DNA from: Gemmatimonadota bacterium
GTDB taxonomy: Bacteria; GCA-2686955
Assembly: GCA_002686955.1 (NCBI GenBank)
Contig: NYZA01000199.1
Location: 1 to 31,999 of the forward strand
Reading direction: 5' to 3'
DNA length: 31,999 bases
Made by a program: the position numbers and the translations under genes. Shown here in pieces: positions 1,746-29,521 of the stretch (its first letter is position 1; every line of letters begins with the position of its first letter). The notes under the pieces were generated by a model, which had not been told where the DNA came from, did not search any database, and was given only the letters and a program-made list of their open reading frames with translations.

Positions 1746-4133
1746 GTGGACGCGCTCCCGATCTCGTCCTTCGACGGAGACGACGCGGGGCTGGACCGGC
1801 TCCTGGCGGAGCACGCGCTGGTGTTGAGCGCGGAAGAAGCGCGCAAGGTGCGCGGGCTCTTGGGGCGGGATCCCACGCTCGTGGAGATGCACATTTTCAA
1901 CACGATGTGGAGCGAGCACTGTTCGTACAAATCCTCGCGCGCGATACTGAAGGAGCTGCTGCCGACGGAAGGGCCGCGGGTGGTGCTCGGGCCGATCGAG
2001 GATGCCGGCATCGTGCGGATCGCCGAGCACGCGGGGAAGAGCTGGTGCCTGGTCGTAGGACATGAGAGCCACAACCACCCCTCGCAGGTGGTTCCCTACG
2101 AAGGGGCCGCGACCGGGGTCGGGGGAATCCTGAGGGACCTCTACTGCATGGGGGCTGACGTTTTCGGCCTGCTCGACCCGCTCCGCTTCGGCGATCCGGA
2201 GGGAGAGCAGGGGGGACGGGTGCGAGAGATCGCTCGGGGCGTCGTGGACGGGATATGGGGCTATGCGAACGCCGTCGGTGTTCCGAATCTAGGTGGTGAC
2301 ACCGTTTTTCACCCTTCGTTCGATGACAACTGCCTGGTCAATGTGGTCGCATTCGGCATCGTGGAGGAATCGCGGGTCGTTCGCAGCCGGGTCCCGGCCG
2401 AGGCACGCGATGCCAACTATGTCTTCATCTTGGTCGGCAAGCCCACCGACGATTCCGGATTCGGTGGAGCTACTTTTGCGTCGGTAGATCTCGATGAGGA
2501 CGATGTCGAAGCGAACCGCGGAGCCGTGCAGGCGCCCGATCCCTTTCTGAAGCGGGTTCTGGCCGTAGCTTGCCGCGATCTGCTCGATCTGCTCGACGGC
2601 GCAGGTGTGTCTTTCGGCTTCAAGGACCTGGGCGCCGGAGGGATCGCCTGCGTCACGAGCGAGCTGGCGCAAGCCGGTGGGGTGGGGGCCGAGATCGATC
2701 TGGGAAAAGTGCCGGTGTCGCTGCCGACTCTGCCGGCCGAAGTGATCGCCTGCTCGGAGACGCAGGAGCGTTTCTGTCTCGCGGTGCCCGAGGACTGGTC
2801 GGCGCGGGTGCTCGAGATCTTCAACGATCGTTATGAGCTGTCGCGTGTTTCGGAGGGCGCGTGCGCGGCCGTGATCGGACGGGTTCGTCGTGACGGCCGA
2901 TATGTTCTTCGCTTGGGAGAGCAACCGGTTTGCGATGCCGATGTGGATGCGATCACCCAGGGGATTCGGCACGATCGGCCGCGCAAGGCGAGGCAGCGAC
3001 CGGCTCCGGGGCCGGCCGCGGGGCCGGTTAGGGAGGCCTTCGACCTGGGTGAAGGGTTGGACGCATTGGTCGGCTCGCTCGCGTGCGGCTCTCGCGCGGC
3101 GATCTACCGCCACTACGACACCGAGGTGCAGGGGAATACGATGGTGCGACCGGGAGAGGCCGACGCATGTGTCGTGACCCCGGTGCCCGGCGCTCCTTTC
3201 GCGATCGCGGTCTCGGCCGACGGGGATCCGGCGGTGGGGCTGCTCGACCCATGGGCCGCCGGCGCCTTCGCGGTCGAAGAGGCGGTGCGCAATGTCGCGG
3301 CTGTTGGCGGGCGTCCGCTCTGCATCACCGACTGCCTCAACTACGGCAATCCAGAGCTGCCCGAGGTGATGGAGGAGTTCCGCGAGGGGGTGCGGGGGAT
3401 CGCCGATGCCTGCCGGGCGCTCGGTGTGGTCGACGATGATCCCGCGGTGGACGGAACGCCGATTCCTGTCATCAGCGGAAATGTGTCGTTCTACAACCAA
3501 TCCGCCGCCGGCCGATCGGTGGCACCCTCTCCGATCGTGTCTTGCGCGGGTTGGCTTCCGGATGCGTGGCGTGTAACAACGCAGATCCTTGAGAGGCCCG
3601 GCGACGCATTGGTGCTGGTGGGCATGCGTCGCTCCGAGGTTGGGGGGGCGGAAATAAGTCATCGCTTCCCAAAGATCGAAACCGGTGCTCCGCGTCCGGT
3701 CGATTTCGATGCCGCCCGCTCGGAGATTCGCGGAGTGTTGCGGGTTCTGGAACGGGGGTTGGCGCGGGCATGTCACGATATCTCCGGAGGGGGGATCGCG
3801 CTTGCGATCTGCGAAATGACGTTCGGCGCGTTGGCCGCGACCCCGGATTTCGGAGTGTCGCTCGATCTGGACGAGACCAGCGACGATTCGGACTGCGATG
3901 CGGTGGGGCGCTTCTTTGGAGAGATGCCCGGCTTTGTGTTGGAAGTCGATCCTGAGATGGTCGATGACGTGCTGTCGGTTTTGCGGAGCGAGGGGGCGTG
4001 GGCGCGTTCGGTCGGGAGGACGACATGCGATGGCTCGTTCACGGTGCGGGGGCGGGGGCGTCGCGCACTCGACCGCTCGATGTTGGCTCTTGCACGCAGT
4101 TGGCGAGGCGCGTTGGATGCGGTTCTGGCATGA
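1746..4133 (+). CDS. purL: Phosphoribosylformylglycinamidine synthase, synthetase subunit
   Basis: PurL is the ATP-dependent subunit that converts FGAR to FGAM with ammonia delivered from PurQ. At 795 residues it is the small, stand-alone PurL type, with no fused PurS-like or glutaminase domain, so it should need separate PurS and PurQ partners. Family hallmarks include the TMWSEHCSYKSS segment (His58), VGHESHNHPSQ (about 105-113), the glycine-rich YEGAATGVGG loop and NLGGDTVFHPSF. The second half repeats the ATP-grasp-like pseudo-symmetry, with the NYGNPELPEVM and ISGNVSFYNQ segments. The start is GTG, immediately after the purC stop. The stop overlaps the mobB start in an ATGA. Confidence 0.97.
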   Translation: MDALPISSFDGDDAGLDRLLAEHALVLSAEEARKVRGLLGRDPTLVEMHIFNTMWSEHCSYKSSRAILKELLPTEGPRVVLGPIEDAGIVRIAEHAGKSWCLVVGHESHNHPSQVVPYEGAATGVGGILRDLYCMGADVFGLLDPLRFGDPEGEQGGRVREIARGVVDGIWGYANAVGVPNLGGDTVFHPSFDDNCLVNVVAFGIVEESRVVRSRVPAEARDANYVFILVGKPTDDSGFGGATFASVDLDEDDVEANRGAVQAPDPFLKRVLAVACRDLLDLLDGAGVSFGFKDLGAGGIACVTSELAQAGGVGAEIDLGKVPVSLPTLPAEVIACSETQERFCLAVPEDWSARVLEIFNDRYELSRVSEGACAAVIGRVRRDGRYVLRLGEQPVCDADVDAITQGIRHDRPRKARQRPAPGPAAGPVREAFDLGEGLDALVGSLACGSRAAIYRHYDTEVQGNTMVRPGEADACVVTPVPGAPFAIAVSADGDPAVGLLDPWAAGAFAVEEAVRNVAAVGGRPLCITDCLNYGNPELPEVMEEFREGVRGIADACRALGVVDDDPAVDGTPIPVISGNVSFYNQSAAGRSVAPSPIVSCAGWLPDAWRVTTQILERPGDALVLVGMRRSEVGGAEISHRFPKIETGAPRPVDFDAARSEIRGVLRVLERGLARACHDISGGGIALAICEMTFGALAATPDFGVSLDLDETSDDSDCDAVGRFFGEMPGFVLEVDPEMVDDVLSVLRSEGAWARSVGRTTCDGSFTVRGRGRRALDRSMLALARSWRGALDAVLA

Positions 4134-4649: not shown

Positions 4650-5465
4650 ATGGAAGCCACGGTCGCGGTGCTGCGGCTGCCTGGAGTGAACTGCGAGATC
4701 GAGACGGCGCGGGCCTGCGCGGTGGCCGGTCTGCGCCCCGAGATCGTGCGCTGGAACGACGCTGAGGCGAAGCTCGAGAGCTTCGATGCATTCGTTCTGC
4801 CCGGCGGCTTCTCATTTCAGGATCGAGTGCGTGCGGGAGTGGTTGCGGCGAACGAGCCGGTACTCGAGATCGTGGTCGAGCAGGCGGAGGCGGGAAAGCC
4901 GGTGCTCGGAATCTGCAACGGGGCGCAGGTGTTGGTGGAGTGCGGCCTGGTGCCTGGAATGGTGCCCGGTGCGGTCGAAGTGGCGCTGGCTCCGAACGCG
5001 GAGCCGGGGTACGAATGCCGATGGGTCTTCTCGGCGCCGAGCCCGATCGGTGCGTCGCCTTTTGTGCGGGGATTGGCGCGAGAGGGGCCGATTCCGATGC
5101 CGGTGGCTCATGCCGAGGGGCGATTCGTTTCGGGGGATGCGTCGCTTTTCACAGCGTTGCATCATGCGGGACAGCTCGCCTTTCGATATGTGTCGCATGA
5201 TGGCGAGGCGACTGGAGATCACAACCCGAACGGGGCCGAGCTCGACACGGCGGGCATGGTGAACTGCAGCGGAAATGTGTTGGCGTTGATGCCGCATCCC
5301 GAGCGATCGGCGTGGCTGCGTCAGGTTCCGACCTGGTTGCCGGGATCGTGGGGGCGCAAGCGGCGGGAGGCGGCGGGCAGGCCGGAGCTTCTCGATGCGC
5401 CCGGGCCGGGCATGGCGGTCTTTCGCGCGCTGGCGCGGGCGGCGATGGAGAGGAGAGAGGGATGA
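4650..5465 (+). CDS. purQ: Phosphoribosylformylglycinamidine synthase, glutaminase subunit
   Basis: PurQ hydrolyses glutamine and channels ammonia to PurL. The class I glutamine amidotransferase triad is visible: Cys89 in LGICNGAQVL, and His216 and Glu218 in MPHPERSAW. The protein has 271 residues, longer than the roughly 225 of Bacillus-type PurQ. The usual GGFSYGDYLRAG loop reads GGFSFQDRVRAG, and RQVP follows the His/Glu motif, so this is a variant PurQ clade. ATG 4650 lies 19 bases after mobB; in-frame upstream codons add nothing conserved. The stop overlaps the next gene's ATG (ATGA at 5462-5465). The variant loop may matter for docking to the unusual PurS-like neighbour, which is inference. 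Confidence 0.95.
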   Translation: MEATVAVLRLPGVNCEIETARACAVAGLRPEIVRWNDAEAKLESFDAFVLPGGFSFQDRVRAGVVAANEPVLEIVVEQAEAGKPVLGICNGAQVLVECGLVPGMVPGAVEVALAPNAEPGYECRWVFSAPSPIGASPFVRGLAREGPIPMPVAHAEGRFVSGDASLFTALHHAGQLAFRYVSHDGEATGDHNPNGAELDTAGMVNCSGNVLALMPHPERSAWLRQVPTWLPGSWGRKRREAAGRPELLDAPGPGMAVFRALARAAMERREG

Positions 5466-6022
5466 GGCGGCTCTACCTCTTGGCGCGCTCGAAGATCCCC
5501 GATCTGGTGGCGCTGACGGCGCGGCAGGCGTTGCGGGGGCCCTTGGGGCTTCCGGTAAGAGAGGTGCATCGCGAGATTCTGTGGACGATCGGGCACGAGG
5601 CGCGCGCCGAGGGAGATGCCGCGCTGGTTGACCGGTTGCTTCATGCAACGACCTTGTTGGTGAACAGCGCGAGCTGGTCCTCGCGTTGGGGAGTCGAGAT
5701 TCCACCGCCCCTCCACGGCACGGGTCGAATGCGAGCGCTCCGGGTGGAGGTTCGCGAACGGGGGGGGAGCGCGGGCGCGCGTGCATTGAAGCGGTTGAGG
5801 GCCGCTTACGGTTTCGACGAGGTCATCTCTTTGGATCGCTCTCTGCTTTGGACCTTGCATCTTCCGGGCGAGATCGACGACGATGCGCTCGAGAAGATCA
5901 TCGAGCGGGCGGTGGTGACGAGAGGGAGAGCCGAAGGGTTGCTCGTGAACCCGCACTACCAGGAACATCGTGTTCTCGACGATCGATCGGCGCCCGGCGA
6001 GGCCCGGGTGGAGGCGCCATGA
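5462..6022 (+). CDS. Two-repeat PurS-like protein (candidate FGAM synthase bridging subunit)
   Basis: This 186-residue protein sits where the operon lacks purS. Residues about 90-172 resemble PurS: a strand (LRVEVRE), a helix ending LRAAYGFDEV, a strand (SLLWTLHL), a helix, then LLVNPHYQEHRV, like the PurS LLANPVIEDY ending. Residues about 2-76 repeat the plan: a strand (LYLLARS), a helix ending LRGPLGLPVREV, a strand (EILWTI), a helix, then LLVNSASWSSRW. The two halves align at LR..G(L/F), (I/L)LWT and LLVN. PurS is normally about 80 residues and works as a dimer joining PurL and PurQ, so this looks like a single-chain dimer. The start is fixed by an ATGA overlap with purQ, and the end overlaps purF in the same way. 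The family call comes from reading by eye, not from a profile search. Confidence 0.72.
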   Translation: MRRLYLLARSKIPDLVALTARQALRGPLGLPVREVHREILWTIGHEARAEGDAALVDRLLHATTLLVNSASWSSRWGVEIPPPLHGTGRMRALRVEVRERGGSAGARALKRLRAAYGFDEVISLDRSLLWTLHLPGEIDDDALEKIIERAVVTRGRAEGLLVNPHYQEHRVLDDRSAPGEARVEAP

Positions 6023-7425
6023 TCGAATCCCATCACTGGAACGAGGAATGCGGTGTTTTCGGCATCGTGGGGCACCCGCGTGCCGCCGAGCTCACCTATC
6101 TTGGTCTCTACGCTTTGCAGCACCGAGGTCAGGAAGGGGCGGGAATCGCTACATTCGATGGGCAGCGCTATCACGAGCACAAGCGTTTGGGCCTGGTGAG
6201 CGACATATTCGATCCGGGTACCTTGGGTCGTCTGGAGGGAAGTAGCGCCGTCGGCCACACGCGCTATTCGACCACCGGATCGACCGTATTGCCGAACGTG
6301 CAGCCCTTGGTGGCGAATCTGCACCACCAGGCGGTTGCGCTCGCCCACAACGGAAATATCGTCGATGCGCGAATGGTGCGCGCGGGCCTCGAGGATGGCG
6401 GCGCGATCTTCCAGACCTCCATGGACTCCGAAGTCGTGCTTCATCTGATGGCGCGTTCGCGACACCGGGAGACCGAGCGACGATTGGCCGATGCGCTGGA
6501 TCGCATCCACGGCGCCCATTCGTTGGTGCTGCTCGCCGGAGACACTCTTTTCGCCGCGAAAGACCCGAAGGGGATCCGCCCGCTGTGCATCGGTGAGCTC
6601 GACAAGGGTGGGTGGATCGTGGCGAGCGAGAGCTGTGCGCTCGATATAGTCGATGCTGGTTTCGTTCGTGAGCTCGATCCGGGGGAGATCGTCGGTTTGG
6701 CTCCCGGCACATCACCGCGAACCGTGCGCCGCGCCCCGGAGGGGGAGCGGGCGGCCTGCATCTTCGAGGCGATCTACTTCACACGGCCCGATTCGATCCT
6801 CTTCGGGCGGACGACCGGAGCGGCGCGCGTGGCCTTGGGACGGCAGCTCGCGGTCGAAGCGCCGGCGCCCGGGGCCGATGTCGTGATCAGTGTTCCCGAT
6901 TCGTCGAACGCGGCCGCGCAGGGGTATTCACAGGAATCAGGAGTTCCCTTGGGCCACGGCCTGATCCGGAATCACTACGTTGGGCGTACCTTCATCAAGC
7001 CTTCGCAAGGTATTCGCGATCTCTCGGCGAGGATCAAATACAACCCGGTGCGAGATGTCGTGCGCGACCGTAGCGTGGTCGTCGTCGACGATTCGATCGT
7101 TCGCGGAACGACAGTGCGGAAGCTCGTGGCGATGGTGCGGTCGGCGGGGGCGCGCGAGGTTCATTTCCGTGTGTCGTCATCTCCGATCGTAGGCCCTTGT
7201 TACTACGGAATCGACACACCTGACGAGCGCGAGCTGATCGGTGCCCGGAATACGATCGATGAAATCGAGAAGATCGTCAGCGCCGATACGCTGCGCTACT
7301 TGTCGATCGAAGGAATGAAGAAGGCGGTCGGCAATGGATCGGGTTTTTGTACGGCCTGTTTCGACCGAGATTACCCCGTCCCGGTAGCCGAGCGGCTCGA
7401 CAAGGCGATTCTGGAGAAGAGCTAG
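6019..7425 (+). CDS. purF: Amidophosphoribosyltransferase
   Basis: PurF makes 5-phosphoribosylamine from PRPP and glutamine, the committed step of purine synthesis. Translation starts at ATG 6019 (ATGA overlap with the preceding gene) and gives 468 residues. The N-terminus MIESHHWNEE precedes CGVFGI, so Cys11 would become the N-terminal nucleophile after propeptide cleavage. Four cysteines match the Bacillus-type [4Fe-4S] ligands: Cys247 (RAACIFE), Cys394 (VGPCYYG), and Cys444 and Cys447 (GFCTACF). The PRPP-binding loop reads VVVVDDSIVRGTT. This is therefore the propeptide-bearing, oxygen-sensitive iron-sulfur type, not the E. coli type. Its stop codon shares one base with the ferredoxin GTG. 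Confidence 0.97.
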   Translation: MIESHHWNEECGVFGIVGHPRAAELTYLGLYALQHRGQEGAGIATFDGQRYHEHKRLGLVSDIFDPGTLGRLEGSSAVGHTRYSTTGSTVLPNVQPLVANLHHQAVALAHNGNIVDARMVRAGLEDGGAIFQTSMDSEVVLHLMARSRHRETERRLADALDRIHGAHSLVLLAGDTLFAAKDPKGIRPLCIGELDKGGWIVASESCALDIVDAGFVRELDPGEIVGLAPGTSPRTVRRAPEGERAACIFEAIYFTRPDSILFGRTTGAARVALGRQLAVEAPAPGADVVISVPDSSNAAAQGYSQESGVPLGHGLIRNHYVGRTFIKPSQGIRDLSARIKYNPVRDVVRDRSVVVVDDSIVRGTTVRKLVAMVRSAGAREVHFRVSSSPIVGPCYYGIDTPDERELIGARNTIDEIEKIVSADTLRYLSIEGMKKAVGNGSGFCTACFDRDYPVPVAERLDKAILEKS

Positions 7426-7631
7426 TGTCACAGTCCGTCGCCACCGAGCTGAGGCCGATCGCAATCGATAGGACTCGCTGCGATCTATGCGGCGCATGTG
7501 CCGGCATGTGCGCTCCCGACTCGATCCGGATCGACCACGCGATGATCGAAGTGGACCAACATAGCTGCACTCTCTGTATGAAATGTGTTCCGACCTGTCC
7601 GGTGACGGCAATCTCCGGGGGCAAGGCGTGA
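7425..7631 (+). CDS. Two-cluster 4Fe-4S ferredoxin
   Basis: A 68-residue cytosolic electron carrier with two complete CxxCxxCxxxC motifs: Cys19/22/25/29 and Cys48/51/54/58. Each last cysteine is followed closely by a proline (CAP, CPV), typical of bacterial-type 2[4Fe-4S] ferredoxins. GTG 7425 is chosen: its first base is the last base of the purF TAG stop, and longer in-frame starts would only read through the purF 3' end. The next gene encodes a geranylgeranyl-reductase-like flavoprotein, so this ferredoxin is its likely electron donor, as in archaea. The ferredoxin stop lies 8 bases before the large palindrome. Confidence 0.93.
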   Translation: MSQSVATELRPIAIDRTRCDLCGACAGMCAPDSIRIDHAMIEVDQHSCTLCMKCVPTCPVTAISGGKA

Positions 7632-7638
7632 TTCCTAA

Positions 7639-7817
7639 GGGTCCGCGCAAGAAAAACTTGTCTTTTTGGTGCCCAGATGTGCCGCAGATCCGGTCGATCG
7701 GTGAGTTCCGAAACCGGAGGAATAGTCGGGCTATTTCGATGATTTCGGAACTCGCCGATCGGCCGGAGATGTGGTGCGGATGGGATGCCAAATGACAAGT
7801 TACTCTTGCGCGGACCC
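7639..7817. repeat. 179-bp imperfect palindrome, two inverted 75-bp units
   Basis: The left arm (7639-7713) and the reverse complement of the right arm (7743-7817) match at about 58 of 75 positions by eye, without gaps. Both begin GGGTCCGCGCAAGA and end with a near-identical block around CGATCGG-GAGTTCCGAAA. The central 29 bases contain a perfect small hairpin, AATAG-TCGGG-CTATT (7721-7735), centred on the same axis (7728). As RNA this would fold into a very long stem. It fills the ferredoxin-reductase gap, and its right arm contains the reductase start codon. A third copy of the 75-bp unit lies at 8995-9069. Confidence 0.93.
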
Positions 7818-8994
7818 TAAGGGCGGCTTCGATGTAGTGGTGGTGGGTGCGGGACCGGCGGGTTCGATGGCGGCGAAGCACGCGGCGGCGAATGGCGCCG
7901 AAGTGCTGTTGCTGGACCGAAAGCGCGACCCCGGCACGCCGGTGCGCTGCGGCGAGGGCGTGAGCGCGGCGGGATTGGCGCAGTACGTCGACCCTCAGCC
8001 GGAGTGGATCTCGGCCGGTATCAAAGGGGCGCGCCTGGTGAGCCCGAGCGGCGTCGCGGTGGAGATCGGTACACTCGGCGCGGGGTATGTTCTCGAGAGA
8101 AAGCTCTTCGACCGGGGACTGATCGAGTTGGCCGCGAAGGCGGGGGCACGGGTGCTCAGCGAAGCGAACGCGGTCGGGTTGCGGCGGGGGAGCGACGGAC
8201 GGATCGCCGGAGTTCGTGTTGTTCGGCGAGGCTCGGAGAGCGTTGTGCCCTGCAAGATCGTAATCGGCGCTGACGGCGTCGATTCTCGGGTCGGCCGGTG
8301 GGCCGGAATCCGCACCGACCTTCGGCTGGCCGATATGGAATCTTGCGCCCAGTATCTGATCGCGGATTGTGAGACGGAGAAGGGCTTCTGCGAGTTCTTT
8401 CTAGGGCGGGATGTGAGCCCGGGGGGGTACGCCTGGATCTTCCCGAAAGGGGATGGGCTCGCGAACGTCGGTCTGGGAGTGTCGGTGAAGGAGGCGCGGC
8501 GGCGCGGATCCGCTATTGAGCACCTCGACCGCTTCATGGAACGACTCGGTCTCTCGGGAAAGATGCTCGGTTTCACCGTGGGCGGCGTGCCGGTCTCGCA
8601 CACCCTCGACACGATAGTGGCCGACAGCGTCATGCTTGCCGGCGACGCCGCCCGTCAGGTCAATCCGATGACCGGCGGCGGGATCTTGACCGGCATGCTG
8701 GGGGGGCAGTTGGCCGGCGAGACCGCCGCCGAAGCGATTCGCGAGGGGGAGGTTTCGGCGCGTGTCCTAGGGCGCTACTCCGAGCGGTGGCACGAACGCG
8801 CGGGCAAGACCAACAAGCGCTGGTATCGGATCAAGGAGGCGGTCGGTCGTTTGCCCGATTCGACGCTGGACGAGACTGCCCGGGTGTTCGAAGGGACCGA
8901 TGCGGCCGATCTCACCCTCTTCAAGATCTTCGCGCGGATCTTCCGGCGGAATCCGAAGCTGATTTGGGATATTCGGCACGTCTTCATGGGGTAA
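7792..8994 (+). CDS. Geranylgeranyl reductase family flavoprotein
   Basis: Members saturate double bonds of isoprenoid chains (archaeal lipids, menaquinone or chlorophyll side chains) using FAD and an external reductant. The 400-residue protein has the N-terminal FAD fold VVVGAGPAG (Gly19/21/24), the family cysteine in VRCGEGVS (Cys53), the YAWIFPKGDGLANVG substrate-cavity motif, and GDAARQVNPMTGGGI for FAD pyrophosphate and ribityl contacts. Residues 1-9 are encoded by the right arm of the palindrome. In-frame starts at 7771, 7780 and 7792 all lie inside that arm, none with a clear ribosome site; ATG 7792 is the closest to the conserved domain. The adjacent ferredoxin parallels Methanosarcina, where the neighbouring ferredoxin feeds the reductase. 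The substrate is unknown. Confidence 0.88.
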   Translation: MTSYSCADPKGGFDVVVVGAGPAGSMAAKHAAANGAEVLLLDRKRDPGTPVRCGEGVSAAGLAQYVDPQPEWISAGIKGARLVSPSGVAVEIGTLGAGYVLERKLFDRGLIELAAKAGARVLSEANAVGLRRGSDGRIAGVRVVRRGSESVVPCKIVIGADGVDSRVGRWAGIRTDLRLADMESCAQYLIADCETEKGFCEFFLGRDVSPGGYAWIFPKGDGLANVGLGVSVKEARRRGSAIEHLDRFMERLGLSGKMLGFTVGGVPVSHTLDTIVADSVMLAGDAARQVNPMTGGGILTGMLGGQLAGETAAEAIREGEVSARVLGRYSERWHERAGKTNKRWYRIKEAVGRLPDSTLDETARVFEGTDAADLTLFKIFARIFRRNPKLIWDIRHVFMG

Positions 8995-9069
8995 GGGTCC
9001 GCGCAAGAATTACCTGTCATCTTGGCGCCCAGATGTGCCGCGGATGTGGTCGATCGGCGGACTTCGAAA
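8995..9069 (+). repeat. Third copy of the 75-bp repeat unit, direct orientation
   Basis: This segment matches the left arm 7639-7713 at about 61 of 75 positions with no gaps, starting GGGTCCGCGCAAGAA and ending CGAAA. It begins at the base after the TAA stop of the reductase gene. No mirrored right half follows: similarity ends at about 9070, where CotH-like coding sequence begins. The reductase gene is therefore bracketed by an inverted copy on its 5' side and a direct copy on its 3' side. Confidence 0.9.
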
Positions 9070-9620
9070 CCACAATCTCCTCCTCCATCGCGATCGTTCC
9101 GGGGGACGGTGGCGAATCCTTCCATGGGATCTCGACAACGTCATGCGGCTCTCGTCGCTTCCGGCGATCTACGGAACGGAGGATGTTCCGGGCCCGGATG
9201 ATCTGCGCAACGGGCTCGTCGATCGCGTGCTGAGCGTCCCTTCGTTCCGTCGCCGCTACCTCGAACGGATGACCGAGCTACTCGATGGACCCTTCGCCAG
9301 CAAGGGCTGCCTGGAGTCGCTCGAGGCTCGGGCTCTCGCCCAGGAAGAGGACGCACGGATCGACGTGGAGAAGTGGACTCGGGAGCGCTTCGATCTGTTT
9401 CTGGCCGAGGTCGACACCTTGATGACGGTGATGGGAGATCGAGAGAGCCATCTCCGGGCTTCGATCGCTTCGTTGATGCCGCCCGCCCGGGTCGATCTTG
9501 CGATCAACGAGCTCGTGATGGCAGGGGACGACACATCGGCCGCAGTGCTGGGGGTGGAGCTCCACTTTCGTGGGCGTTCTCCGATCGATGTCGCCGGCTT
9601 CCACTTGAGCGATGATCCCG
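9069..9620 (+). pseudogene. CotH-kinase / lamin-tail protein, internal remnant
   Basis: The frame reads NHNLLLHRDRSGGRWRILPW then DLDN, the typical CotH spore-coat-kinase-like C-lobe. It continues with PSFRRRYLERMTELLDGPF and a helical tail with EVDTLM. A degraded lamin-tail-domain start follows, with INELVMAGDD and VELHFRGRSPIDVAGFHLSDDPD-like text. The kinase N-lobe, signal peptide and start are absent: upstream of about 9069 the frame runs into the 75-bp repeat. At about 9620 the lamin-tail domain stops abruptly and the sequence becomes the antisense of a beta-helix gene. A GTG at 9035 keeps the frame technically open to 10324, but the part after 9620 is spurious. It is a truncated relic of a secreted protein gene. 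Confidence 0.72.
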
Positions 9621-10540
9621 ATGTCGGAGCGGGTCCCGTTGGCGTACCGATCGGGCCACCGCGGATGCCGGTCGGAGAGGGAGTCGGTGAGCGTGGGATC
9701 TCCCGTATCGATGCAGGGGGAGCCGGGCCGGAGCAGGTAGTCGAAGCGACCGTGGGTGCGGAAACCCGGGTCGGCATCGATATTGCCCTCGCCTGGCCAG
9801 CCGCCTTGGATGTTCGAGTAGGCGAGGATCGGCGCTCCGGCGCTGAGTTCATTCGGTGTGTCGGCCCAGAGGATGCAGTTCGTGAAGGTCGGGTTGGAGC
9901 CCTGGCCGAAGAGCGCGCCGGCATCTTCGAGGGCCGAGTTCTCCGTCAGTGTGCAGTTGTTCAGGGTGGGGGCGGAGTCGAGCGAGTAGAGTCCTGCTCC
10001 TATATTGGCGGTGTTGTTCGTGATGACACAGTTGGCGAGCGTCGGAGAGGCGCTCGCGACGTAATACAATCCTCCTCCGCCTTGGCTGGCCTCGTTCCAC
10101 GAGATTCTGCAGCGACTGACCACCGGTGCCGAGTTCTCACTACAATAGAGTCCGCCGCCGTTGGATGCAGCGTTGTCAATTATGGTGCAGTGCTCTATCG
10201 AGGGAGAGGATTGTTCACAAGTGATGCCGGTACCGCCTTCGGTGATGGTCAAGCCGATGATCGAGGCGGCCAGGTTCGGATCGTGAGGCAGGAACCGGAG
10301 GATGTCCTCGCGCACGCCGTTTAGAACGGTTGCCGCAACGATCTCGGGATTGCGCGGATAGACACTTCGGAGGACGAGGCCCAGTCCGGGGACGGCGAGG
10401 CCCGACTCGTAGTAGGTTCCGGGGAGGACAACGATCGTGTCTCTTTCGCATGCGGCCAGGAGCGCGTCCCGGATCGTCGGAGACTCGGTCGGGACATTGA
10501 TGACGGCAGGCTCCGGAGCTTCGGCATGATGTATCCGGGC
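9616..10540 (-). pseudogene. Secreted parallel beta-helix protein, broken at both ends
   Basis: Minus-strand translation from about 10540 gives VINVPTESPTIRDALLAACE and VLPGTYYESG, the standard opening of secreted beta-helix (pectate-lyase-like) proteins. Repeats such as GGGLYCSENSAP and GAGLYSLDSAPTLNNC follow, then GNIDADPGF, SPCIDTGDP and HPRWPDRYANGTRSDIG. The family ending (AYGG, as in the intact gene at 17371-18516) is lost at about 9618, where antisense CotH sequence begins. No ATG, GTG or TTG in frame precedes the first coil; the frame opens at a stop at 10607-10609, and no signal peptide is encoded. A GTG at 10315 would give a frame ending at 9278, but it starts after the first coil. 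It is probably a dead copy. Confidence 0.75.
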
Positions 10541-10644
10541 ATGGGATGCGCTCGCTGGAGGATATCCTCGTCTGCGTCGTTTCGTCTCTTCGGGCGAAGA
10601 CCCCGGTTAGGCTTGCCCCAGCTCCTCATTCCTCCCCACTTCCC

Positions 10645-10648
10645 GGAG
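10645..10648 (+). promoter_or_regulatory. Ribosome-binding site deciding the subtilase start
   Basis: GGAG lies 8 bases upstream of a TTG at 10657. No comparable site precedes the in-frame ATG at 10546, and starting at TTG places a signal peptide at the N-terminus. Confidence 0.4.
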
Positions 10649-10656
10649 TCCCTTCC

Positions 10657-13452
10657 TTGTTCAACACCGCTCGACTCGATCCACGCTCCTTCCGCCTCTA
10701 CTTCGCCGCATTCTTCTGGTCGGTTTTGGCTCCGCGCGCCTCGGCGGCACCTATCGACGATTCGCTCGGGATCCTCCCCCACAGTCTCGCGCCCGCCCTG
10801 GCCGAAGAGCTCGAGCAGCACGGCGAGAATCCCGATCCGATCCCCGTGGTCATCGTGCTCGACTCCTACCCCGACCTCGACCACTTCTCGCGAGTCGAAC
10901 ATGCCACCTCCGCCTCGCGATCCGGTCGTCCTGCCCGTCTCAAACGACTTCTGGTCGAGAACTTCGAGCGGAGCTCCCCGGGCGTAGCGGCGCTGCTCAG
11001 GGCCGAGCGGGGACGAGGCGAGCGCTTCGAAGCGCGCCCCTACTGGATCTTCAACGGCTTCGTGGCCGACCTGAACCCGGCCGCCATCCGACGGGTCGCC
11101 GATCACCCCGCGGTCGCCCTGGTCCGCCACGCCGATCCGATCGCACCGCCGCGCGTGGCCCCGGCGGAACTATCCCCGGCGAATGCACAGGCGAGCGAAT
11201 GGAACATCGACATGATCAATGCCCCCGACGCGTGGGCGCGCGGCTACCGCGGGCAGGGCGTCGTCATCGGCGGCATGGATACGGGCGTGCGCCTGGAGCA
11301 CCCCGATCTGACCTCGCGTTATCTGGGGGGCGACCACGCCTGGCTCGATCCCTTCGAAGAGCACGCGACACCTTATGATGCCGACGGGCATGGAACTCAC
11401 ACCATGGGCACGATCGTTGGGGGAGATGCCAGCGGCAAAGACATCGGCGTGGCTCCGGACGCCAAATGGATCGCCGCTCGCATGTGGAGCGACATCGGCT
11501 TCAGCTCGCTCGATATCACGCAAGACCTCTTTCAATGGTTCATCGACCCCGACGGCGATCCCGGGACCGACGACGCACCGCGGGCAGTCTCGAATTCATG
11601 GGGCTTCGATTTCGACGGCTGCCTGATCGATTTCCGGCGCGATGTGCTGGCCTGGCGCGCGGCCGGAATCCTGCCGGTTTTTGCCTCGGGCAACTCCGGT
11701 CCGGGAACAGGCTCGAGCGAGAGCCCGGGCAACTACCCCGAGACATTTTCCGTCGGTGCGACCGATTCCGGCGATCGCATCGCCGGCTTCAGCGGACGTG
11801 GGCCTTCCGACTGTGATCAGGAGTGGATCAAGCCCGATATAGCGGCGCCCGGCGTATCGGTGCGATCGAGCGTCGGTAGCGGCTGGCAATCGTGGAGCGG
11901 CACGTCGATGGCGACGCCGCATGTGACGGGCGCCGCCGCGGTGCTACTCTCGGTCGACCCAAGTCTGAGCGTGGACGAGCTCGAGGAGCTCATGAAGATC
12001 TCGGCACTAGATCTCGGCGACGCCGGACCCGACAACGATTTCGGCTATGGACGCCTCGATGTGGATGCCGCGGTACGGGCTGTGCTCGATCGAGGCGCCT
12101 TCCAGGGCACGGTCACCGATGCGACTACCGGATCACCGGTCGACGCGTTGGTCACGGTCGACTTGATCGGCAACACGCGTGAAGCGATCACGGACGACCA
12201 GGGCAGCTACGCTCTTAGCCTGCCCTCGGGTCTGAGCTACACACTTCGAACGACCGGCTTCGGATACGTCGATCAGTCCGCGGTCGCGTTCCTCCCCGCC
12301 CAGACGATCGTCACGCAAGACTTCGCTCTCGACCCGAAGCCGGTCGGACCTTTGACCGGCACCGTAGTCGACGAAGCGATGCTGCCGATCGCGGGCGCGA
12401 AGGTCTCCCTCGCCGATGCTCAGCTCGTCGCCCTGAGCGCCCCGGATGGAACCTTCGATTTGGGAAGCGTTCCGGTCGGCGAAACCCTCGAATTGATGAC
12501 CTCCTACTGCGGTTTGCTCGATGAGATGCGTCAGATTTCGGTGCCCAGTCCTTCCGGACTCGATCTCGAGATCACCCTGGCGAGTCCCGCCCCCGATGAT
12601 ATCGAATCGGGCACGAACGGATGGCGCTCCGAAGCGGTCACCATATTTTATTCCGATCAATGGCATATCTCGACGGAGCGATCGCACTCTGGTGATCTCG
12701 CCTGGAAATGTGGTGCCACCGATGACAGCACCTACGACAACTACCTCGACGCCGGACTGACCACACGCTGCTACGACGTCGACAAAGGCACCACGTTGCG
12801 CTTCTGGCATTGGGTCGCCACCGAGCCGAATCCAACATTCCCCGGTCGCGTGTGGGACGGAGGTATTGTGGAAGCGTCGACCGACGACGGCGCGACCTGG
12901 AACCAGCTCTTCCCCGCGGGCGACTACCCGAACCGCATCACTCCCAACCCCGCCAACGTGCTTCCGGGTGGAACCCACTGCTACGGCGGATTCCGAAAGG
13001 TCTGGGAAGAGGCGATCTTCGATCTGCACGAGATCGAAGGAGCAACACGTTTCCGCTTCCGCTTCGCCTCCGACGGACTCATCACCGACGAAGGTTGGTA
13101 CATCGATGATCTGAGCTTCGCTCCCACCGACCCCAACTGCTCGCTCGCGATCTCGGGCGCTCCCACGAACGTTCCGATCGGGGGTGACGTGGAGTGGGAG
13201 GTGAGCGTCGTCAACGGCGAGAGCCGTCCCGTCAGCTACGATTTCTGGATCGAGATCAGCGGTGTCGGCGGGGATTGGATGGATCCCTATGGCACCAAGT
13301 GGGAGCTCGAGGAGTCGGCTGAGCGTAGCGCCACGGTCCGAATTCGGAACGTGCCCGCCATCACTCCGGGAAGCTACACGGTCCTCTGCCGCATGGGCGT
13401 TCTGCCCGATCTGGTCTGGGCCGAGGACGGTTTCGTCGTGGATGTGCAGTAG
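10657..13452 (+). CDS. Secreted subtilisin-like serine protease with C-terminal accessory domains
   Basis: An S8-family endopeptidase, probably exported. With TTG 10657 as start it has 931 residues. The sequence around YFAAFFWSVLAPRASA would be the signal peptide; starting at ATG 10546 adds 37 residues unlike a signal. An inhibitor-I9-like propeptide region (about 55-160) precedes the catalytic domain. The triad is visible: Asp208 in GGMDTGV, His245 in GHGTHTMG and Ser417 in SGTSMATPH, plus the oxyanion-region Asn in ASGNSGPG. Two carboxypeptidase-regulatory-like folds follow (GTVTDATTGSPVDA and GTVVDEAMLPIAGA). Then come a jelly-roll domain of the immune-inhibitor-A/MAM type (WHISTERSHSGDLAW, WYIDDLSF) and a last Ig-like domain. 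No sorting signal was recognised at the C-terminus. Confidence 0.9.
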   Translation: MFNTARLDPRSFRLYFAAFFWSVLAPRASAAPIDDSLGILPHSLAPALAEELEQHGENPDPIPVVIVLDSYPDLDHFSRVEHATSASRSGRPARLKRLLVENFERSSPGVAALLRAERGRGERFEARPYWIFNGFVADLNPAAIRRVADHPAVALVRHADPIAPPRVAPAELSPANAQASEWNIDMINAPDAWARGYRGQGVVIGGMDTGVRLEHPDLTSRYLGGDHAWLDPFEEHATPYDADGHGTHTMGTIVGGDASGKDIGVAPDAKWIAARMWSDIGFSSLDITQDLFQWFIDPDGDPGTDDAPRAVSNSWGFDFDGCLIDFRRDVLAWRAAGILPVFASGNSGPGTGSSESPGNYPETFSVGATDSGDRIAGFSGRGPSDCDQEWIKPDIAAPGVSVRSSVGSGWQSWSGTSMATPHVTGAAAVLLSVDPSLSVDELEELMKISALDLGDAGPDNDFGYGRLDVDAAVRAVLDRGAFQGTVTDATTGSPVDALVTVDLIGNTREAITDDQGSYALSLPSGLSYTLRTTGFGYVDQSAVAFLPAQTIVTQDFALDPKPVGPLTGTVVDEAMLPIAGAKVSLADAQLVALSAPDGTFDLGSVPVGETLELMTSYCGLLDEMRQISVPSPSGLDLEITLASPAPDDIESGTNGWRSEAVTIFYSDQWHISTERSHSGDLAWKCGATDDSTYDNYLDAGLTTRCYDVDKGTTLRFWHWVATEPNPTFPGRVWDGGIVEASTDDGATWNQLFPAGDYPNRITPNPANVLPGGTHCYGGFRKVWEEAIFDLHEIEGATRFRFRFASDGLITDEGWYIDDLSFAPTDPNCSLAISGAPTNVPIGGDVEWEVSVVNGESRPVSYDFWIEISGVGGDWMDPYGTKWELEESAERSATVRIRNVPAITPGSYTVLCRMGVLPDLVWAEDGFVVDVQ

Positions 13453-26201: not shown

Positions 26202-27329
26202 ATGCTCAGTCGCTTTCGGTGCCGGAAAAAGGACGATTTGGACCCTTCGATCCGCCGCTTCGCCGCCTTGGCCCTACTGCAGGCAGCCTTCCTGCCCGCG
26301 CAGCCCCGCGCGTGTGCCGACTCCATCTCTCCATGGCAGGTCGGTGTGCTCTATGGGTCGATGGAGATACCGGGGCACATGGCCATGCGGCGGGGGCTCG
26401 AGAGCGAGGCCGAGAGGATCCGGGAGGCCGCCAAAGCAGCCGGAGTCAAAGGGATTCGGATCGAGACGCGGGTCGCGGGCGGGGGCCCCGAAGGGATCGA
26501 ACGCCAGATCGGCCAGATGAACGAGCTGATTTCGGCCAGAGTCGACCTGCTCATCGTTCAGCCCTCCGACAATGCGGCCCTCTCCCGCCCCCTGCGTAGG
26601 GCCAACGGCGAGGGGATGCCGGTCGTGACCTACGACCAGTACATCTACGGCGGCGCGATCGAGAGCTACGTGACCTCGGATGGCTACGGGGCCGGATTCT
26701 TCAATGGAGAGTATATCGCGTCCCGCTTCCCCGACGACCACACGATCCGCTTGGCGCTCGTGGAGTACCCGCACCTCGCCTCGATGGTCGAGAGGGTGAA
26801 CGGCTTCCTGGACGCACTGAATCGGCTCGAGCAATCCCTGACGATCGTGGGGACATACGAAGCGATCGAACCCCGAAGCGGCGCGATGGCGGGAGCCGAG
26901 ATCCTCGCCGATTTCCCCGATTCCGCTTCGGTGGACGTGGTTTTCTCCGTGAGCAACGCTGGCGGGCTTGCCCTCGTGGATGCACTGGCCGAAGCAGGTC
27001 GCCGAGAGATCCTGGTCGCCACCATCGACGGAGATCCTGAGTCGGTCGAAAACATCCGGGCGGACAGGTTGACCGTCATCGATTGCGCTCTGTTCCGCCG
27101 GCATATGGGGGCCGCGGCTATGAGGGCCGGATGGGCGATCCTGAACGGAGAGGAGATACGTCCGCTCATCAGAGTTCCGGTCTTTCCGATCACGCGCGAG
27201 ACCCTATCCTGCTACGGAGGGTGGTCCGGCGAGCACCCCGAGCCTTTCGCCCTGCCCTGGCCGAGCAAGACTCCGCAATGGCGATGGGAAAGCGTCGACC
27301 GAGTTGCCGGTGGGGGCGCTTTGCGATGA
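26202..27329 (+). CDS. Periplasmic sugar-binding-type protein (LacI/RbsB fold)
   Basis: A 375-residue exported binding protein of the ribose/galactose-binding type. The signal peptide is IRRFAALALLQAAFLPAQPR then ACA. The fold's markers are WQVGVLYGSMEIPGHMAMRR, the 'DLLIVQPSDNAAL' strand-turn, PVVTYDQYIYGG, the second-lobe VVFSVSNAGGLALVDALAE and ILVATIDGDPES. ATG 26202 is given, but a TTG at 26238 preceded by AGGA would start closer to the signal peptide and may be right. No transporter genes are near. The stop overlaps the ATG of a hybrid kinase (ATGA at 27326-27329), so this protein probably presents a ligand to that sensor, in the manner of TorT/TorS or LuxP/LuxQ. Confidence 0.88.
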   Translation: MLSRFRCRKKDDLDPSIRRFAALALLQAAFLPAQPRACADSISPWQVGVLYGSMEIPGHMAMRRGLESEAERIREAAKAAGVKGIRIETRVAGGGPEGIERQIGQMNELISARVDLLIVQPSDNAALSRPLRRANGEGMPVVTYDQYIYGGAIESYVTSDGYGAGFFNGEYIASRFPDDHTIRLALVEYPHLASMVERVNGFLDALNRLEQSLTIVGTYEAIEPRSGAMAGAEILADFPDSASVDVVFSVSNAGGLALVDALAEAGRREILVATIDGDPESVENIRADRLTVIDCALFRRHMGAAAMRAGWAILNGEEIRPLIRVPVFPITRETLSCYGGWSGEHPEPFALPWPSKTPQWRWESVDRVAGGGALR

Positions 27330-29521
27330 AACCATCGAAGTCGCAAATCAGTATTCGGGCGGCAAAGCGTTTGGGCTCGCGGCTCTTGCTCTGGTACGGG
27401 ACCGTGGTCTTCCTGCTCGTGACCGTCATCTGCATAGGCGGGAGCTTGGTCCTGATTCGGCTGGCGAATCGCGAGGTCGATCGATTGGCCGCCACGACCA
27501 CGCTGGTGATCTCCGATGCGATCGAGCGCGTGAGTTTTTCGGGCAAGTACCATGCTCGACTGCTCGTCGACGATCTCGTTCGAAAGCACTCCGACATCGC
27601 CTACATTGCGATTCACGATCGAAAAGGTGTCGTCTTTGCGCACAGCGATCCCTCCCTGAACGACACCCAACCGTACGATCCGGCCGCCCGCGAAGCGATG
27701 CGAGTGCTTGACGGCGGAGTCCAGATCATCCAGCGCTTGCTGATAGACGGACAGCGGATCGAAGAGGTCGACGTGCCTCTGGTCGGCGGCTATGCAAATG
27801 AGCTCTTGGGTGTCGTGCGCGTGGGAATCTCACGTGAGGATTCCTTTCGGGAGCTGATGAAGGGACTGTCGCTGATCGCGGCGCTGGGACTGCTTCTGAT
27901 CGTGGTCTCGCTCGCGATCGTGCACCGAATCAGCCGGCGGCTCGCCGCTCCCGTTACGGAGATGGCCCTTACCCTGCAGGGGATCTTCGACCACGCTCCG
28001 ATCGGTGTGGTGATTCAAGGCAGGGGCGGCAGAATCCTGCATGGCAACAACGCGGTCGGAGAGCTGCTCGACACGACACCGTCGCACGAGAGGGGGCGCT
28101 ACCTTTACGACCTCACCGAGGCGGTGGGCCTCGATGCGCTCGCTCGGGTGACGGAGCGGGTCTTCGAGACCGCCAAGAGCCATGAACAGGAGATCGAGCT
28201 GATCTCCGATGTGGGCACCCGCACGATTTCGATCATCGGGTTCCCCGTGGCCACCGATCGCATGGGCCGCACGTCGGAGGTATGTGCGTTCTTGGTCGAT
28301 CTGAGCCGAACGAAGGCTCTCGAGGAGCAGCTCCGAAGCGCACACCGAATGGAAGGGCTCGGTGAGCTGGCGGGCGGCATCGCCCATGACCTCAACAATC
28401 TGCTCACCGGCATCCTCGAGCACGCGGATCTGGCATTCGCCGAGGCTCCGGCCGGTACGGAGCTACGGGAGAACCTACAGGAGATTCTCGAGGTGGCCGA
28501 CCGGGGCGCGGGGCTGGCCGAAAGCCTGGCATCCTTCGGTCGCGACCGGTCCATCGAAGCGATCCCTCTCGATCTGGCCGAAAGAGTCTCGGAGCTCGTA
28601 CCGATGCTCTCTCATGTCGTGGGAGAGGGGATTCGACTCGATATCGTTCCGCCGAAGGCGCAAGAAGTCGTGGTGAAAGCGGCCCCCGCGCAGCTCGCGC
28701 AAGTACTCCTCAATCTGGCGACGAATGCGGCCGATGCGATGCCCGAGGGGGGGACCATTACGATTTCGATCTCGGAGGCGCCCGCGAATCGGCCGACACC
28801 GGGGAGCGATCGAGCCCTGTCGGTGGTTGAGTGGGGATCCGTGGTCGTCTCCGATACTGGCGTTGGGATGGGCCGCGCGGTCCTGGAGAAGGCGTTCGAG
28901 CCTCTGTTCACGACGAAGTCTCCGGGAGAAGGCGCCGGCCTCGGGCTGTCGACGGCGTACGGGATCGTCAAGCAGCACGGGGGCGAGATCGAGTTGGAGA
29001 GCCGAGTCGGTGAAGGAACGAGTGTGCGGGTGCTGCTTCCGATCGCCCACAGGACGGCGGAGTCCAGCGACCAAGCGCTGCCGGAGGTCGGACCGGTCGC
29101 CGGCGGCGATGAGACGATTCTGCTCGCCGAAGACGCCCCTTCGGTGCGCCGGCTGTTGGTCAAGATCCTCGAATTGAGGGGCTATGGAGTCGTGGCCGTG
29201 GAGGACGGAGCGTCGGCCGCGTCGCTCTTCGCGCGCGAACGGGACGATATCGATCTCGTGCTGCTCGACGTTGTGATGCCCGGAATGGGCGGCCGGGAGG
29301 CGCTGGCGGAGATACGCCGACTCGATCCCGATATGCCCGCGATTCTGATGAGCGGATACCCCTCCGAAAAGGTCCAGGCGGGAGGCCCTCTCGGGAAGTG
29401 GGTCGACTATCTGGCCAAGCCGGTCAAGACCGACGCGCTGCTTCGCATGGTCAGAACGATGCTCGACCGAGCGCAGGGCTCTCGATCGCGCGATGGTGAA
29501 GTGAAGGCCGATCAGAAGTAG
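27326..29521 (+). CDS. Hybrid sensor histidine kinase with receiver domain
   Basis: A 731-residue membrane kinase. TM1 (about 20-46) and TM2 (about 181-200) enclose a periplasmic sensor of about 130 residues. A PAS domain follows (about 215-330; IFDHAPIGVVIQGRGGRILH). The HisKA phospho-acceptor is His354 in GIAHDLNN. The ATPase has the N-box Asn467, the G1 box SDTGVGM (Asp510) and the G2 box GAGLGLST. The C-terminal receiver (about 597-712) has Asp648 in LLDVVMPG and Lys698. No output domain or separate response regulator is nearby, so phosphate may move to a distant partner, or the receiver may act as a sink. It is translationally coupled to the upstream binding protein. Its 3' end overlaps the convergent PHP gene by 10 bases. 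Confidence 0.95.
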   Translation: MKPSKSQISIRAAKRLGSRLLLWYGTVVFLLVTVICIGGSLVLIRLANREVDRLAATTTLVISDAIERVSFSGKYHARLLVDDLVRKHSDIAYIAIHDRKGVVFAHSDPSLNDTQPYDPAAREAMRVLDGGVQIIQRLLIDGQRIEEVDVPLVGGYANELLGVVRVGISREDSFRELMKGLSLIAALGLLLIVVSLAIVHRISRRLAAPVTEMALTLQGIFDHAPIGVVIQGRGGRILHGNNAVGELLDTTPSHERGRYLYDLTEAVGLDALARVTERVFETAKSHEQEIELISDVGTRTISIIGFPVATDRMGRTSEVCAFLVDLSRTKALEEQLRSAHRMEGLGELAGGIAHDLNNLLTGILEHADLAFAEAPAGTELRENLQEILEVADRGAGLAESLASFGRDRSIEAIPLDLAERVSELVPMLSHVVGEGIRLDIVPPKAQEVVVKAAPAQLAQVLLNLATNAADAMPEGGTITISISEAPANRPTPGSDRALSVVEWGSVVVSDTGVGMGRAVLEKAFEPLFTTKSPGEGAGLGLSTAYGIVKQHGGEIELESRVGEGTSVRVLLPIAHRTAESSDQALPEVGPVAGGDETILLAEDAPSVRRLLVKILELRGYGVVAVEDGASAASLFARERDDIDLVLLDVVMPGMGGREALAEIRRLDPDMPAILMSGYPSEKVQAGGPLGKWVDYLAKPVKTDALLRMVRTMLDRAQGSRSRDGEVKADQK

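Follow-up and report, generated by a model that had tools for sequence, protein, structure and literature searches.

PurS dimers bridge PurL and PurQ in the FGAR amidotransferase (FGAR-AT). The N-terminal region of the large form of PurL comprises two PurS units (PMC3815217), and in a published statistical study a 'PurSS' sequence had to be constructed artificially and manually (PMC3815217). Archaeal mdPurL, whose N-terminal PurS-like region spans about 200 residues, is likewise already known (PMC3261824). A free-standing tandem PurS appears to be new: the form is widespread and mostly unannotated, and no report of it was found in the open-access literature searched. Here we describe such a protein, encoded in a purine operon within a 31,999-nucleotide stretch of bacterial DNA (the window). 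We conclude with high confidence that it is a natural single-chain PurS dimer (PurSS), which most likely acts as the third FGAR amidotransferase subunit in place of the 80-residue PurS.

A sequence-only reading of the window had pointed to a 186-residue protein between purQ and purF, and this protein is present exactly at positions 5462-6022 of the forward strand, from the ATG at 5462 to the TGA at 6022. Both of its ends, read directly, are ATGA overlaps, in that the start sits within the purQ stop (5462-5465) and the stop is shared with the purF start (6019-6022). Profile searches give the gene order purC, purL, mobB, purQ, tandem ORF and purF, with purB also nearby. On the same strand, purC (969-1745; PF01259, 281 bits) lies upstream in the same purine operon, and purF (6019-7425; TIGR01134, 490.7 bits) is ATGA-coupled to the tandem gene. 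The operon had also been read as encoding a small PurL and a separate PurQ, which is borne out by profile matches for purL (1746-4133; TIGR01736, 626 bits) and purQ (4650-5465; TIGR01737, 210 bits), both on the forward strand. The PurL has 795 amino acids, begins with the linker domain (PF18072 at residues 21-62) and carries no fused PurS, and PurQ is the glutaminase partner. No normal purS had been expected elsewhere in the genome, and none was found by a PF02700 search of the 4.28-Mb window assembly, where a separate gene could be missed because the assembly is 84.5% complete.

Several other forward-strand features of the window were recorded. The mobB gene (molybdopterin-guanine dinucleotide synthesis protein B; PF03205; 4130-4630), between purL and purQ, is ATGA-coupled to purL. 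Shortly 3' of purF is a gene for a geranylgeranyl-reductase-like flavoprotein (7771-8994), and between the two lies a Cys-rich ferredoxin-like sequence in a different frame (7426-7770). The character of the ORF at 9035-10324 seems to shift midway, which may be a frame change. Farther along are a subtilase with carboxypeptidase-regulatory-like domains (10546-13452) and a periplasmic sugar-binding-type protein (26202-27329) that precedes a hybrid sensor kinase with Cache and receiver domains (27083-29521).

The landmark pairs from which an internal repeat had been proposed are present in the protein (LRGPLGL and LRAAYGF, ILWTI and LLWTL, LLVNS and LLVNP). Half-profiles were built from 54 tandem sequences and compared by hhalign with 19 single PurS sequences, and the window sequence was left out for its own scoring. 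Single PurS is matched by the N-half profile with an E-value of 2.2e-8 and by the C-half profile with an E-value of 2.6e-10, and the two half-profiles match each other with an E-value of 4.2e-13. Reversed control alignments yielded zero matches in this comparison. The whole window protein scores 118 bits against a family profile made without it, compared with at most 6.6 bits for 1000 shuffles. Its N-terminal unit (residues 1-81, positions 5462-5704), supported by the N-half profile of relatives and by DSSP of the model, has a strand-helix-strand-helix-strand plan and scores 50 bits against the N profile and 19.5 bits against the C profile. The C-terminal unit (residues 90-176, positions 5729-5989), supported by the C-half profile of relatives and by model superposition, includes LLWTL and GLLVNPHYQ and scores 75 bits against the C profile and 19.9 bits against the N profile. 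The best of 1000 shuffles reached 8.8-10.7 bits in the cross-half tests and no more than 13.5 bits in any of these tests. The opposite-half scores (19.5-19.9 bits) therefore show that the internal repeat is real in the window protein too. The cross-half scores, the half-profile matches and the predicted fold support two PurS-like copies in one chain.

Neither the window protein nor its halves match PurS in Pfam (PF02700) or NCBIfam, and the protein has no match among PDB sequences. The suggested comparison of each half with PF02700 thus gives no direct match for the window halves, and their connection to PurS is made by relatives. Full-length relatives with 31-33% identity, collected by scanning named genomes with a two-sequence alignment, include L004 from an unclassified bacterium, L005 from an Armatimonadetes MAG in which the tandem gene adjoins purQ, L006 from an Eisenbacteria MAG with the same purL-purQ-tandem-purF order as the window, and L007 from a MAG of Zipacnadia, a class of Armatimonadota. 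The whole proteins L004, L005 and L007 exceed the PF02700 cut-off with two stretches each. When the halves are isolated, both of those of L004 pass this cut-off and those of L007 fall just under it. A relative from the same small GTDB phylum and family (G001/L003) lies directly before purF and is cut by a contig end; its C-half is 54% identical to the window C-half.

The ORF is one member of a family of free-standing tandem PurS proteins that is widespread and has gone mostly unrecognised. With the family profiles, a full or partial tandem gene was detected in 23 of 151 Armatimonadetes-group genomes, where three more weak matches resemble single PurS or chance, and in 6 of the 7 genomes of the Eisenbacteria group. 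A wide bacterial sample yielded the gene in about 30 of 386 genomes from about 20 families (31 profile matches, some weak or partial). Searches of plasmids, phages and viral contigs gave no matches. A separate canonical PurS was found in 0/31 tandem genomes versus 20/31 other genomes (Fisher p = 1.8e-8 for 0/30 versus 20/31, with genomes treated as unrelated), and the single PurS match in one genome, G220, is the tandem gene itself. All near-complete tandem-bearing relatives tested also lack a separate purS. Small PurL or PurQ matches are present in the tandem genomes, and none of these genomes has a large PurL above the cut-off. As to the proposed survey for the tandem gene beside purQ, purQ is located within 1.5 kb of 39 of the 54 tandem genes. 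Because Pfam at an E-value of 0.01 fails to detect nearly all tandem genes, purS would be scored as absent by automatic annotation. Tandem PurS replaces normal PurS across a wide range of little-studied bacteria and is mostly unannotated.

AlphaFold models were generated from a six-sequence alignment and compared with known structures by Foldseek and VIA-align. The models of the window protein (mean pLDDT 78, pTM 0.76) and of L004 (mean pLDDT 87, pTM 0.83) both contain two strand-helix-strand-helix-strand units. The whole predicted fold superposes collinearly on the first 145-156 residues of large PurL from Salmonella and human, with rmsd values of 3.1-4.0 Å, Z scores that are about 10-11.7 for most entries and never below 8.2, and 133-153 residues aligned in most entries. 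The window C-half (model residues 87-174) aligns on PurS with a Z score of 5.5 (structures 1vq3, 3d54, 1twj and 2cuw), and the L004 N-half model aligns on seven PurS structures with rmsd values of 1.4-2.9 Å. Taken singly, the model units align on PurS structures from Sulfolobus, Methanocaldococcus, Thermotoga, Thermus and Bacillus. In the predicted fold, aligned pairs preserve the relative placement of both units, which corresponds to a dimer-like arrangement. The sequence-only reading stood or fell with a PurS match in its halves, and the predicted structure of the protein alone matches the PurS fold in both units (the N-half by way of L004). Four lines support the identification as a tandem PurS, namely family profiles, fold, gene context and the mutual exclusion of tandem and ordinary PurS.

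A tree of halves (92 columns, unrooted) resolves into four groups: the N-halves (98/93), the C-halves (99/86), single PurS (99/92) and the PurSL halves (98/44). Because the N-halves and the C-halves are each monophyletic, a single duplication-fusion, separate from the PurSL duplication, probably preceded the spread of the tandem family. With 92 columns and no root, the tree leaves some probability to fission, whereby the protein would be an N-terminal domain split off from large PurL or PurSL rather than a duplicated free PurS. This origin would agree with the superposition of the entire model on the large PurL N-domain and with a weak match, collinear over 152 columns, between the tandem profile and the PurSL N-terminus (E 5e-5). 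However, the tandem profile is closer to single PurS (E 1.7e-9 and 9e-8) than to the PurSL N-terminus, the PurSL halves cluster apart from the tandem N- and C-halves (in a weak, unrooted tree of ~90 columns), and the tandem profile has no sequence-profile match to the N-terminus of E. coli large PurL. We therefore regard fission as unlikely and favor duplication and fusion of a free PurS. The protein had also been called an intermediate form, a description that stands for its architecture but is not demonstrated for its evolutionary history, because the tree separates the PurSL duplication and the profile comparison found no sequence link to large PurL.

A different fusion was observed in genome G026 (L109 / L066, contig C254), where a single open frame of 1157 codons, counted stop to stop, joins PurL and PurQ. 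The free tandem PurS is encoded directly downstream, which is the reverse of the PurSL fusion.

The two halves of the family carry different motifs. VNPNKH in the N-half is kept in nearly all of the 54 tandem PurS sequences, and the C-half motif GLLxNPHxQ is intact in the window protein. At residues 68-73 (positions 5663-5680), however, the window N-half has VNSASW instead of VNPNKH, which is nearly unique among the 54 sequences. A hidden frameshift behind VNSASW was rejected, as no NPNKH was seen by eye in the other frames and the frame is kept downstream. The substitution, along with the long branches of both window halves in the tree, could mean that in the window lineage tandem PurS is decaying or without function, with its N-half contact motif lost and another factor taking its place. 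We consider such decay very improbable given the open frame, the ATGA coupling at both ends, the unbroken C-half motifs, the retention of the gene before purF in G001/L003 with its 54% C-half identity, and the lack of any other PurS found in the assembly. Least probable of all is another ferredoxin-like regulator (ACT, PII or Lrp type) that senses nucleotides or nitrogen from within a purine operon, since, although this fold class is widespread and weak structural matches to ACT and PII proteins appear low in the list, the top matches are all FGAR amidotransferase N-domains (Z 8.2-11.7) and PurS (Z 4.8-7.2) versus 4.5 or less for all else, and both the PF02700 matches in relatives and the mutual exclusion with PurS argue against it.

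The partner PurQ had been described as a variant, and both of its proposed signatures, GGFSFQDRVRAG (the FQDRVRAG loop) and HPER..RQVP, are present. In the PurQ tree, the proteins from tandem genomes form one strongly supported clade (100/97) apart from those encoded beside single PurS (100/93), and the window PurQ belongs to this variant class. The loop sequence is GGF(S/T/A)(Y/F/H)(Q/E)DR(V/I)R in all tandem-linked PurQ proteins in which it is covered, whereas the loop of nearly all PurQ proteins from single-PurS genomes reads GGF(S/A)(Y/H)G(D/N)YLR. Because the loop is common to all tandem-linked PurQ proteins that cover it, the variant claim extends to the whole class. The (Q/E)DRVR loop is positioned after the glutaminase oxyanion region, and it may be adapted to PurSS.

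We propose that the two PurS units fold and pack against each other with pseudo-twofold symmetry, as in the PurS homodimer and the large PurL N-domain, and that PurSS would thereby assume the position of the 80-residue PurS as third subunit of the enzyme. A single PurSS would be placed between one copy each of small PurL and PurQ in a putative 1:1:1 complex, through which ammonia from PurQ could reach the PurL active site for the conversion of FGAR to FGAM. Since both units are tied in one chain, the halves can specialise for different partners, and each may have done so. The different half motifs (VNPNKH in the N-half, GLLxNPHxQ in the C-half) and the distinct PurQ loop fit this partner specialisation. 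With less assurance than for the identity of the protein, we lean toward the view that PurSS-PurL-PurQ constitutes a further bacterial FGAR amidotransferase class, with one ancient PurS duplication-fusion, specialised halves, a co-evolved PurQ loop and a 1:1:1 complex, in many lineages scored as missing purS.

The family fills an apparent purS pathway hole in about 20 bacterial families of one sample, whose genomes have no recognisable purS because a divergent tandem fusion provides the subunit. A covalent PurS dimer also opens the two homodimer positions to separate study and mutation. Because these positions are separately mutable in PurSS, the role of each PurS protomer toward PurL and PurQ becomes testable. 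The tandem family moreover provides natural counterparts of the hand-made 'PurSS' (PMC3815217).

PurSS resembles PurS (PF02700 / TIGR00302; Bacillus subtilis and Thermotoga maritima, 1vq3 and 3d54) in the fold and profile similarity of each half, in its purQ adjacency, and in its partnership with a small PurL and a separate PurQ, known here from gene context. However, ordinary PurS has ~80 residues and one unit per chain and forms a homodimer, whereas the window protein has 186 amino acids with two units per chain and is for this reason filed as a tandem variant. The PurSS halves are also asymmetric, with the new motifs VNPNKH and GLLxNPHxQ, and most members fall under the Pfam and NCBIfam cut-offs. 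With the N-domain of large PurL (Salmonella, 1t3t; human FGAM synthase, 9nb3), PurSS shares the predicted whole-length tandem fold and the order of the halves. Unlike that domain, it is free-standing, with about 10-16% identity and no detectable profile link, and PurL and PurQ are separately encoded here rather than joined as synthetase and glutaminase in the same chain. PurSL and mdPurL (PMC3261824) likewise have two PurS-like units before PurL (PurSL was seen in G025 and G036) and no separate purS, but the PurSS pair is unfused to PurL and its halves fall in separate clades. The known range of FGAR-AT architectures thus gains a step, and runs from S+S+L+Q through SS+L+Q, SS+LQ and SSL+Q to SSLQ.
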